Positions 30,134 through 32,822 of a stretch of 32,822 nt of DNA are shown piece after piece. This DNA is from a virus. Location: positions 1 through 32,822 of the IMG/VR virus record IMGVR_UViG_3300032560_000079; one strand, given 5' to 3'. Each line of letters opens with the position of its first letter. The stretch's first letter is position 1. A model generated the notes under the pieces. The model was not told where the DNA came from, did no database searches, and saw only the letters and a program-made list of their open reading frames with translations. The translations under genes were made by a program, and so were the position numbers.

Positions 30134-30275
30134 CCATTGGCAAATGCTCGTGCTTCTTTAGTTTGTCTTCTAGCCTGTGCAACTCGTGCTCAGTTTTCTT
30201 TTCGTGTTCACGCAAAACCACATAATGCGACTTGGGTGATTTATATTCTTTACCTTCAATTTTAAAATTGTTCAT
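30108..30275 (-). CDS. Small charged helical protein after the endolysin
   Basis: A 55-aa protein (MNNFKIEGKEYKSPKSHYVVLREHEKKTEHELHRLEDKLKKHEHLPMEKAHPEAK). It starts inside the endolysin stop codon (ATGA), which supports coupled translation. It has a His/Glu/Lys-rich helix and no signal or membrane segment, so it is not a normal spanin. Function unknown. Confidence 0.6.
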   Translation of the reverse strand: MNNFKIEGKEYKSPKSHYVVLREHEKKTEHELHRLEDKLKKHEHLPMEKAHPEAK

Positions 30276-30691
30276 GCTATTGCGTTGCCTTCCTTGAGTT
30301 GTGCTATTGTTAAACCGCCAGTATATTGAAAGTGCGCTAATTCTTTAAACGTCTTCCAAGCACCAGCCCACTCTAATCCGTTTTCTTGTCCAATCCTGCC
30401 TACTTCGGCCCAAACTGGATGTGAACCATCCCAGTCTGGCTTGCCATTAACCAAAGGCACAATATCCACAGCGCACCGATGATTATGAAAAGAATCACCT
30501 CCTCTGGCGTTTGTGACAATCTTGCCCTCAGTCGTGCGCCCTTGCGCATAAAGTGCATCCTGACTAGCGTTATCCCTGTATGTAGAAGTGACCAAAATAT
30601 CAATGCCTGCAACCTGGCAAGCCTTGATAAAATTCTCAACTCTTGTTTTAACATTAGGAAGTAAATCATCTAAATTTCTAGAATTAATCAT
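30272..30691 (-). CDS. Endolysin, M15-type peptidase
   Basis: A 139-aa protein. Zinc ligands of the M15 (VanY/L-Ala-D-Glu peptidase) family are visible: H69 and D76 in SFHNHRCAVDI, and H120 in ELAHFQY, with E117 as the likely general base. The TYRDNASQDALYAQGR segment is the usual substrate-groove motif. It cuts peptidoglycan peptides at the end of infection. There is no signal peptide, so release depends on the holin, whose gene overlaps it (ATGA). Length is normal for phage M15 endolysins. Confidence 0.9.
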   Translation of the reverse strand: MINSRNLDDLLPNVKTRVENFIKACQVAGIDILVTSTYRDNASQDALYAQGRTTEGKIVTNARGGDSFHNHRCAVDIVPLVNGKPDWDGSHPVWAEVGRIGQENGLEWAGAWKTFKELAHFQYTGGLTIAQLKEGNAIA

Positions 30692-31182
30692 TTTGCCATT
30701 AAAGAATTATGTAGCATCTCGTCTTTCTTTTGACTACCAGATGAACTACCAAAATAAAACGCAATCACGCCAGTCCAAGCAGTTGATAGCGACCCGAGCA
30801 TAATCATCAACTCATCAGACTTTGTTACCTTGTCTGTCATCAGCGCATACAAAATACCAAAGAAACCAATTGTAATTCCGCAGGCCAAGAATGGGGGTAT
30901 CCAGCTGTGTGTAGCCGTTTGCAGCGCTCGAGCTGATGCTCTGTCTGCCGTAGCCAATTGTTCAAAGTCTAAGTTAAGCTCTTGCGCCTTAGCTTTCAGT
31001 GCAATCTCAGCTTGTTGCACCGCAGCGATCTGATCCGCGGTTAACTTATTAGATTCAAGCATAGTCTTGGCATCATCTTGCGACACACCTAAGACTTTAG
31101 ACACCGCCTCATACGCTAAACCACCAAGCGGTCCACCAATGGCAGTAAAAATTGTGGGCGCTATACTTTTTAACCAGTCCAT
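30688..31182 (-). CDS. Holin, three-helix (3TM_holin family)
   Basis: A 164-aa protein (MDWLKSIAPTIFTAIGGPLGGLAYEAVSKVLGV...). The first hydrophobic stretch is at 6-24. A long charged helix (QQAEIALKAKAQELNLDFEQLATADRASARALQ) follows, and then two membrane helices at about 94-115 and 124-145. This is the layout of the 3TM_holin family. It forms lesions that release the endolysin encoded next. ATG 31182 is chosen for AAGGAATGAT upstream, where the AAGGA lies within the end of the -1 frame of the previous gene. Confidence 0.85.
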   Translation of the reverse strand: MDWLKSIAPTIFTAIGGPLGGLAYEAVSKVLGVSQDDAKTMLESNKLTADQIAAVQQAEIALKAKAQELNLDFEQLATADRASARALQTATHSWIPPFLACGITIGFFGILYALMTDKVTKSDELMIMLGSLSTAWTGVIAFYFGSSSGSQKKDEMLHNSLMAK

Positions 31183-31183
31183 A

Positions 31184-31441
31184 TCATTCCTTACAATACT
31201 TAGGCCAATAGCCTGTTTGACGAAAAATATGCTCACATTCTACATTTGTCGAGTCTTCATAGTAATGTTTTAAGAACATGATGTGCCACTCTTGTCCGCT
31301 TTTCTTGCTTTTGTAATCAAGATTAATCTGATACATCAACGCTGCAATTGTAAAAAAAACCACGAAGACCGCAATACAGATTGCAATTCTAAAATTCCAT
31401 CTCTCCAGACTTTCACGTTTTCTTCTTTGGTTAGCTTCGTC
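31184..31441 (-). CDS. C-terminal part of the lysis-region membrane protein, read in the -1 frame
   Basis: This frame adds 85 residues (DEANQRRKRESLERWNFRIAICIAVFVVFFTIAALMYQINLDYKSKK...YWPKYCKE). It holds a basic segment, one membrane helix (FRIAICIAVFVVFFTIAAL) and a 45-residue outward-facing tail with two Cys. It has no ribosome site or start at its head, and opens only four codons before the A-run, after a TGA. It makes sense only as a continuation of the 157-aa frame, through a -1 shift, transcript slippage or a missing base. A 50-aa frame from ATG 31336 is an alternative start (TGATG with the upstream stop). Confidence 0.65.
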   Translation of the reverse strand, partial: DEANQRRKRESLERWNFRIAICIAVFVVFFTIAALMYQINLDYKSKKSGQEWHIMFLKHYYEDSTNVECEHIFRQTGYWPKYCKE

Positions 31442-31809
31442 TTTTTTTTTAACTTTTCATCTAGCAGTTTCTGTTGGTTTTCTAGCTTTGTTCTCTCAGC
31501 TATAAACTCTGTCCAGACTGCTCCAAGCTCAGGCGGTGACTGATATACCAACATCTGCCTTAGATCGTACTCAGCCTGTTCTAATTGTTTCTTACGCAGT
31601 ACATTTTCTAAAGCAATAGATTGTATTGACTTGCCCTTTGGCGGATTTGATTTTTGCGCTTCAGCATGTTTGTGCGCCTGTTCCTGGTGATCAAAGAATG
31701 ATCCAAGCGCCCCACCCAACTCATTAACAATGTTGACTACTTCGCCACCAGTAGCTTTAATTTCTTTATAGGCTGCAACTCCGCTTTTTACAGCAGAGAA
31801 TGCCATCAT
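31336..31809 (-). CDS. Lysis-region protein, 0-frame product (shifted gene, N-terminal part)
   Basis: A 157-aa frame (MMAFSAVKSGVAAYKEIKATGGEVVNIVNELGGALGSFFDHQEQAHKHAEAQKSNPPKGK...). A small hydrophobic head is followed by long charged coiled coil (about 70-130). Phage proteins of this design usually end in a basic stretch plus a single membrane helix. Here the 0 frame loses that and ends EENVKVWRDGILELQSVLRSSWFFLQLQR, while the -1 frame supplies it. Full shifted product: 208 aa. ATG 31809 lacks a ribosome site. An ATT 21 bases upstream (IDPFTLAMMAF) has GGTGAAG before it and may be the true start. Confidence 0.65.
   Translation of the reverse strand: MMAFSAVKSGVAAYKEIKATGGEVVNIVNELGGALGSFFDHQEQAHKHAEAQKSNPPKGKSIQSIALENVLRKKQLEQAEYDLRQMLVYQSPPELGAVWTEFIAERTKLENQQKLLDEKLKKKTKLTKEENVKVWRDGILELQSVLRSSWFFLQLQR
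31441..31447 (-). promoter_or_regulatory. Slippery heptamer A AAA AAG (possible -1 frameshift site)
   Basis: The minus-strand run of nine A (31450-31442) plus G contains A AAA AAG in the zero frame, the same heptamer used by E. coli dnaX. Slippage by one base here joins the 0 frame to the -1 frame that carries the membrane helix. I see no strong downstream stem-loop, and only weak purine-rich sequence upstream. Confidence 0.5.
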
Positions 31810-31831
31810 TGCTAATGTGAAAGGATCAATT

Positions 31832-32047
31832 TTACTTCACCGTAAGGTAATGCGTTAAAAATCCAACCAACGAACTAACACCAGATACCACCATCATGCC
31901 AACCCAAAACCCACCTTTGGACCTGTTGGCAAGCTCGACCAATTGGCAAACAGATGCCTCAAGTTTGTCGATTTTCTTTTCAAGAGTTTCAACGGTTGCG
32001 ACCAATTGGCCGTACTTAAACATGTCAATTGGTGAATCGGTACTCAT
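31832..32047 (-). CDS. Small coiled-coil, tail-anchored membrane protein (XhlA-like)
   Basis: A 71-aa protein: coiled coil at about 10-42 (YGQLVATVETLEKKIDKLEASVCQLVELANR) and one membrane helix at 47-66 (FWVGMMVVSGVSSLVGFLTHYL). This is the layout of XhlA/hemolysin-type lysis accessory proteins. It lies first in the lysis cassette. The start overlaps the stop of the ejection gene (ATGA), with AAGGAACAACC upstream. A holin regulator is likely. Confidence 0.7.
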   Translation of the reverse strand: MSTDSPIDMFKYGQLVATVETLEKKIDKLEASVCQLVELANRSKGGFWVGMMVVSGVSSLVGFLTHYLTVK

Positions 32048-32822
32048 GGTTGTTCCTTAGTTAGTCCGCCTAATTTATTTCTTTGTTCATTTGCAAAAGA
32101 ATTTTTATCAAATTTTTCTTTTAATTTTTTAGCCATTGATACTGGATATGCAGATAAACCACCAGTTTTTGCAGACAATGCTGTTTCGCCTAAAGTTAAT
32201 AAACCATTTTTTGCTAAATCACCCAACATAGCGCTGTAAGTATTTGAATGGCTAAATGTACCAGCATCAGGTTTACCAATTTTGCTATTTAAAAAACCTA
32301 TTTCAGTTACATCTTGCATAGCGCCTGGCGACAACGCTTCTTTTAAAATAGGTTTATTGTTTCTTAAAAAATCGCCAAATTGATCTGATTTAACTCTTGA
32401 TTCATTTGCATTTATTATTGCTTTTTTAGCTCTATCTAATTCTCCATAAATAATTGCTTCATGCCCAATATGATCTTCTGGTAATTCAGCTTTTAAACGT
32501 CTAATTGCTTCAGGTGTAGCAGTAGAAACATATTGTCTATGAAATTTTCCTGCATTTAAACTTTCACCTTGTGATGTACCACCTTCTAGATCTTTACCTT
32601 CTCCTATTGCTTTAGCATAGGCTGGATTAGAATCAATTACATCAAATCTTTCTTTTGCTGTTGCTTTTGCATCTTTAAGTAATGGATATAAAAGTGCAGC
32701 ATCTTCTGTTAATTCCATATTATTAAGATGCTCTCTAGTTAATCTAGCTGCTTCTTTTTCACTTCCTTTACCAAATTTACTTAATTCACTTAACCTTTTG
32801 TCTAATGTTGTAAATTCTTGAA
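32044..32822 (-). CDS. Putative ejection protein, C-terminal third of the gene split by the window ends
   Basis: Continuation of the gene at 1-1328. An apparent start at 32718 (MELTEDAALLYPLLKDAKATAKERFD...) is internal: the codon before it is sense and in frame with the left-end piece when 32720-32822 is merged with 1-103. The part is helical with a Gly/Ala-rich segment near SKIGKPDAGTFSHSNTYSAMLGDLAKNGLLTLGETALSAKTGGLSAYP and a basic end. It ends just inside the XhlA-like gene. Confidence 0.75.
   Translation of the reverse strand, partial: QEFTTLDKRLSELSKFGKGSEKEAARLTREHLNNMELTEDAALLYPLLKDAKATAKERFDVIDSNPAYAKAIGEGKDLEGGTSQGESLNAGKFHRQYVSTATPEAIRRLKAELPEDHIGHEAIIYGELDRAKKAIINANESRVKSDQFGDFLRNNKPILKEALSPGAMQDVTEIGFLNSKIGKPDAGTFSHSNTYSAMLGDLAKNGLLTLGETALSAKTGGLSAYPVSMAKKLKEKFDKNSFANEQRNKLGGLTKEQP
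32720..32822. repeat. Terminal direct repeat, right copy
   Basis: Identical over all 103 bases to 1-103. Merging the copies gives a circular map of 32719 bp and restores one continuous reading frame. Confidence 0.95.

Follow-up and report, generated by a model that had tools for sequence, protein, structure and literature searches.

We describe a lysis-cassette gene, shared by a large group of lake phages, whose membrane helix is encoded in the −1 frame behind a run of nine A (A9), and in which transcriptional slippage on this run probably yields a membrane form beside a soluble one. The window, i.e. the whole stretch of DNA analysed, is a phage record of 32.8 kb (32,822 nucleotides) encoding P22-like portal, coat and stabilisation proteins, Terminase_3, Sak and NinB. 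In the explanation that we favour, most messages would carry nine A and give a soluble helical protein of about 164 aa, and only messages or ribosomes slipping at the run would give a form able to sit in the membrane. By the positive-inside rule, the N-domain of this form would lie in the cytoplasm and its tail in the periplasm. The membrane form would stop beside the downstream lysis-cassette gene and may feed the translation of that gene. Additionally, an AUU, AUA or AUC start in many members would hold the membrane form at a low, fixed dose with the soluble form in excess. Besides the transcript, the ribosome may contribute as well, by slipping back to −1 on A_AAA_AAA or A_AAA_AAG.

The features of the gene and its neighbors are collected in Table 1. 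Open reading frames and translation agree with the initial sequence-only reading, which had noticed that a 157-aa frame is broken just after nine A and that a helix and a two-Cys tail follow at −1. Specifically, the 0 frame runs on for 34 codons past the run-encoded end DEKLKKK before it stops, while a switch to −1 after AAG gives a 208-aa frame counted from the ATG, the extension of which holds a basic stretch, one membrane helix, and Cys192 and Cys206. Two details of that reading had to be corrected: the −1 frame is open starting two codons ahead of the run (TGA AAA GTT AAA AAA AAA), not four, and its stop is separated by one base, not two, from the following ATG (31182). A9 is the sole run of at least nine A/T within the window, where dinucleotide shuffles expect 3.8 on average. 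The hydropathy was at least 2.34 for every −1 tail tested and at most 1.17 for the 0-frame tails, and the 0-frame stop of most relatives is formed by conserved Leu-Met codons of the −1 frame. The Cys pair of the tail, 14 residues apart, is kept in 96/98 sequences; the remaining two have only one Cys within the part that could be read, and a contig end cuts at least one of them. A two-Cys tail of this kind fits a periplasmic disulphide in the long form.

Table 1 Features of the split gene and its neighbors in the window.
Feature	Positions	Strand	Remarks
Upstream 71-aa gene, coiled coil plus one membrane helix	31832..32047	minus	sequence inspection
GGTGA, Shine-Dalgarno-like element for the ATT start	31837..31841	minus	weak in the window, stronger in ATA/ATC relatives
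Putative start ATT	31828..31830	minus	followed by DPFTLA, then ATG ATG; comparison with relatives
0-frame ORF, predicted soluble short form	31336..31830	minus	164 aa from ATT 31830, 157 aa from ATG 31809; stop TGA 31338-31336
A9 slippery run, 0 frame TTA AAA AAA AAG	31442..31450	minus	sequence and relatives
−1-frame extension: basic linker, membrane helix, C-X13-C tail	31184..31441	minus	−1-frame wobble variation; stop TGA 31186-31184
Predicted transmembrane helix IAICIAVFVVFFTIAALMYQI, −1 frame	31325..31387	minus	hydropathy
Holin-like gene (phrog_1544, function unknown), downstream	30688..31182	minus	ATG one base past the −1 stop
M15-type peptidase / endolysin	30272..30691	minus	PF13539, phrog_2649

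To place the break among related phages, we searched IMG/VR contigs, a phage collection and a GTDB genome set; a pattern scan of bacterial genomes found no relatives. After identical sequences were dropped, 119 distinct genes with both domains remained; counts of relatives given here refer to such distinct but related, non-independent sequences, and the tree-based counts allow for kinship. Alignment of these genes reveals that the shift is conserved, the C-terminal domain lying at −1 relative to the N-terminal domain in 109 of the 119. All 109 frame-broken relatives have at least nine A at the frame transition (A9 in 108, A10 in one, L217), and never 7 or 8. The fused proteins share roughly 45–100% identity. 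The sequence-only reading had also offered an indel, with ten A giving one 208-aa frame. In its broader form, as an indel, an assembly error or a decaying gene whose true sequence has one frame, this account can point to the relative L002, a contig in which A10 reads through in a single frame; against it, the 109 distinct relatives come from many samples and are broken at the same place, and strong purifying selection acts on the −1 frame. Because the relatives consistently keep nine A with a broken frame, we ruled this account out and leave it next to no probability. The L002 allele may mean that a fused-only state is viable.

Unbroken homologs also exist. A sister clade of six distinct sequences (L341-L347), 44–48% identical to a family member, encodes the same protein in a single frame, two-Cys tail included, and its longest A run near the junction is at most 6. 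The P0001-type relatives are likewise single-frame, and in distant relatives, including the 222-aa gene of MW202462 and gp42 of Roseobacter phage CRP-113, the helix lies in the frame of the N-domain. The MW202462, CRP-113 and sister-clade proteins resemble the window's product in a homologous N-domain, a charged linker and one membrane helix, and MW202462 and CRP-113 also carry a small coiled-coil/TM gene upstream, but all of them differ from it in having a single frame without A9 at the junction. Since both the distant relatives and the sister clade are unbroken, a membrane protein read in one frame is evidently the more widespread condition, and breakage at A9 is the mark of a single large clade. 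Two sequences stand apart. In a distant relative (L198:1501-1989), the 0 frame ends at codon 162 and a membrane helix lies in another frame; no long A run is nearby, and misassembly may account for this arrangement. The A9 member L068 is intact except for an in-frame stop at N-domain codon 42, which probably reflects an error in the sequence or a defunct gene copy.

The pattern of substitutions further illuminates how the gene is read. Upstream of the run, differences mostly affect 0-frame third positions; beginning about 30 bases past it, they affect −1-frame third positions instead, in both of the register groups described below. For example, the per-site variation over bases 400-476 is 0.366 at the −1-frame third position versus 0.045 and 0.094 at the other two. 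The run itself does not vary. Its three wobble bases are A in 47/47 dereplicated sequences, with 0/0/0 changes on a tree of length 8.0; on this tree, the third positions of 15 other conserved K/Q/E codons have each changed 5–13 times. Purifying selection on both the run and the downstream frame is apparent in these data, which show by comparison that the −1 frame is translated and the run selected, and that the frame break is kept by selection, i.e. that the gene is deliberately split at A9. A separate −1-frame start, from which the membrane segment would be translated on its own, could use a GTG inside the helix in the window. However, an ATG, GTG or TTG near or before the helix occurs at any one −1-frame position in at most 22/99 sequences, and such a start would leave the conservation of A9 unexplained; we consider it of negligible probability and dropped it, as no start codon is common to the relatives. 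The two register groups have different 0-frame tails; this suggests that the sequence of the tail, which would end the short form, does not matter. Just past the run, the 0-frame residues LTKE(E/K) (31410-31440, minus strand) are constant in window-type relatives, whereas those of the −1 frame vary at this place, a hint that the first tail codons of the short form or the RNA sequence may be under selection.

The relatives also bear on where translation begins. Their gene starts with (M/I)-(D/E)-P-(F/I)-(T/S), seven codons upstream of the ATG chosen by the ORF finder in the window, and the codons of the DPFTLA region vary synonymously with the residues constant. The true start in the window appears to be the ATT (AUU) at this position, one base past the stop TAA (31834-31832) of the upstream gene, so that the two products are probably 164 aa and 215 aa long. 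The proposal of a soluble and a membrane-bound form made through a −1 shift has strong support from the conservation of the shift, but the sizes given with it, 157 and 208 aa, probably do not hold. Among 91 distinct sequences, the aligned first codon is ATG in 39, ATA in 30, ATC in 14, ATT in 7 and GTG in 1. In 45 of the 51 ATA/ATC/ATT cases, no ATG, GTG, TTG or CTG occurs between the aligned codon and the upstream in-frame stop. Shine-Dalgarno pairing is stronger in non-ATG members (medians −7.3 for ATA, −5.7 for ATC and −3.0 for ATT, versus +0.3 for ATG members), the state switches between ATG and non-ATG at least eight times on the tree, and ATT also stands at the start of three distant relatives. 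From this comparison we infer that the ATA, ATC and ATT codons initiate translation.

Next, we compared the slippage site among members. The run occurs in two registers, TTA/CTA AAA AAA AAG (the window type) and CAA/GAA AAA AAA AGG. Around a common in-phase A_AAA_AAA, the run is extended by 0+2 bases in one register and 1+1 in the other, with a total of nine in both; on a swap of register, an A is lost on the left and gained on the right, and nine is preserved. L217, with 1+2 (A10), represents a state that could link the two. Every member holds an in-phase X_XXY_YYZ heptamer, A_AAA_AAA, which in most members is the only one. In-phase A_AAA_AAG is present in only 22/98 A9 sequences and in L217, and absent from about 78% of the distinct sequences; the dnaX-type A_AAA_AAG site that the sequence-only reading proposed thus stands for the window and fails as a family feature, being in phase in about a fifth of distinct members. 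In simple folds without pseudoknots of 27 representatives, the sequence downstream of the run folded no more strongly than its shuffled versions (mean z +0.27), in line with the earlier remark that no strong stimulatory stem is visible, and no common Shine-Dalgarno-like element was found upstream of the run in these representatives.

These data bear on which machine slips. Programmed −1 ribosomal frameshifting, in which the mRNA always has nine A and the ribosome slips on A_AAA_AAA or A_AAA_AAG, draws on the in-phase A_AAA_AAA kept by all members, on the A_AAA_AAG of the window and other type-L members, which is the best E. coli site, and on the fact that such shifts are common in phage tail chaperones. 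Some ribosomal frameshift sites work without a stimulator. Nevertheless, a heptamer alone does not require a length of at least nine over two registers, in-phase A_AAA_AAG is missing from most members, and neither a stem nor a Shine-Dalgarno stimulator is evident; we regard ribosomal frameshifting as the less likely explanation, though a serious rival to slippage of the transcript or a partner of it. Transcription is more likely the slipping machine, since the run keeps at least nine A in two registers, only about one member in five has A_AAA_AAG in phase, and there is no evident stem or Shine-Dalgarno element. Slippage of the transcript, raised earlier as a second route, fits the shared homopolymer better than the dnaX-type heptamer does. 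The length of nine is also the one at which selection against slippage on A/T runs shows in many bacterial genomes, and the slippage site of Thermus dnaX consists of nine A's (PMC1088944). Slippage of bacterial RNA polymerase needs at least 7 T's and even more A's (PMC6260861), and in E. coli A_AAA_AAA is much less shift-prone than A_AAA_AAG (PMC5009743). A T7-type RNA polymerase, which would slip more easily, had no match in the window, but the control genomes gave none either, which makes this a weak negative. A third possibility, phase variation at the DNA level, would have the run length vary in the population and toggle the membrane form on and off. Homopolymers mutate often and L002 carries an in-frame A10 allele, but the length is nearly fixed, with A9 in 108 sequences, and the only frame-broken A10, in L217, differs by a G-to-A substitution that leaves the frame broken; we hold this very improbable.

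Transcriptional slippage, the reading that we prefer, has close counterparts in bacteria. The genes tssM1 of Citrobacter rodentium and tssM3 of Yersinia pseudotuberculosis are membrane-protein genes with a long A run (11 and 9) and two length variants; for tssM1, slippage gives the long form, was shown to be transcriptional by RNA analysis and involves no Shine-Dalgarno or stem stimulator that could be found, and the A9 of tssM3 is active in a reporter (PMC4256274). Unlike the phage gene, both encode unrelated proteins of bacterial type VI secretion, and their case is experimental whereas ours is comparative only. In spa13 and mxiE of Shigella, transcript slippage likewise gives a C-terminal extension, and the spa13 extension overlaps at its end with the start of the next gene, whose expression is affected by slippage (PMC5009743); these genes are unrelated and belong to type III secretion, and the phage gene differs in placing a membrane helix in its extension. 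The nine A's of Thermus thermophilus dnaX are a transcriptional slippage site as well, but with the roles reversed: the long product comes from the templated frame and the short one from slippage (PMC1088944). E. coli dnaX and the phage tail-chaperone frameshifts G/GT share the −1 direction (PMC5009743), and the window too contains A_AAA_AAG; they are ribosomal, however, and lie outside a lysis region, and most A9-family relatives lack this heptamer in phase. In tailed phages, tail-assembly chaperones are the main known case of programmed recoding, and the E. coli dnaX frameshift has stimulators.

The genomic setting points to lysis. The ends of the record are identical over 103 bases (1-103 and 32720-32822) and the ORF QEFTTLDKRLSEL continues from one into the other; the genome is therefore probably complete, and either circular or terminally redundant. 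The lysis-cassette setting recognised in the window recurs in several lineages, where the following genes encode a holin (phrog_3427), Rz-like spanins or an M15 endolysin. In about 95 of 96–99 scorable sequences, the ATG of the next ORF lies between 4 bases inside and 11 bases past the −1 stop. Neither the short nor the long product has a convincing match in Pfam or PHROGs, including known spanin and holin families. Structure prediction gave a low-confidence helical model (mean pLDDT 72.6, pTM 0.36), and comparison of this model with the PDB found no meaningful match (best E 1.3). We propose that the gene encodes a lysis-cassette membrane protein with a low membrane-bound dose and an excess of the soluble domain, which may act itself, oppose the membrane form or be a by-product, and we infer a role in timing or regulating lysis.

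The family offers a conserved and naturally controlled lysis-cassette case, in which a clade with a broken frame plus A9 can be compared with an unbroken sister clade that lacks A9, and in which slippage would decide whether the protein enters the membrane. Our literature search, which covered few subscription journals, found no earlier account of a frameshifted lysis-cassette gene. Standard gene callers would report the short soluble ORF only; they would overlook the membrane helix and also, in many members, the AUA/AUC/AUU start. This may explain why the family lacks a name. More speculatively, many lake phages might carry a doubly throttled lysis regulator: an AUA/AUU/AUC start combined with A9 transcript slippage for the helix would fix the ratio of soluble to membrane form, and the two forms, with opposed roles, would set the lysis time and couple it to the translation of the next lysis gene. 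The A9 gene provides a simple way to ask whether transcript slippage sets the lysis dose. Additionally, we observed similar small lipoprotein-like ORFs in the lysis region of two distant phages (L095:2056-2265, LVSGCKDRYRYHCQDPKH, with no PHROG match, and L082:3785-3997, LLTGCSDRYRYKCQDPNH), which possibly represent an o-spanin-like family.
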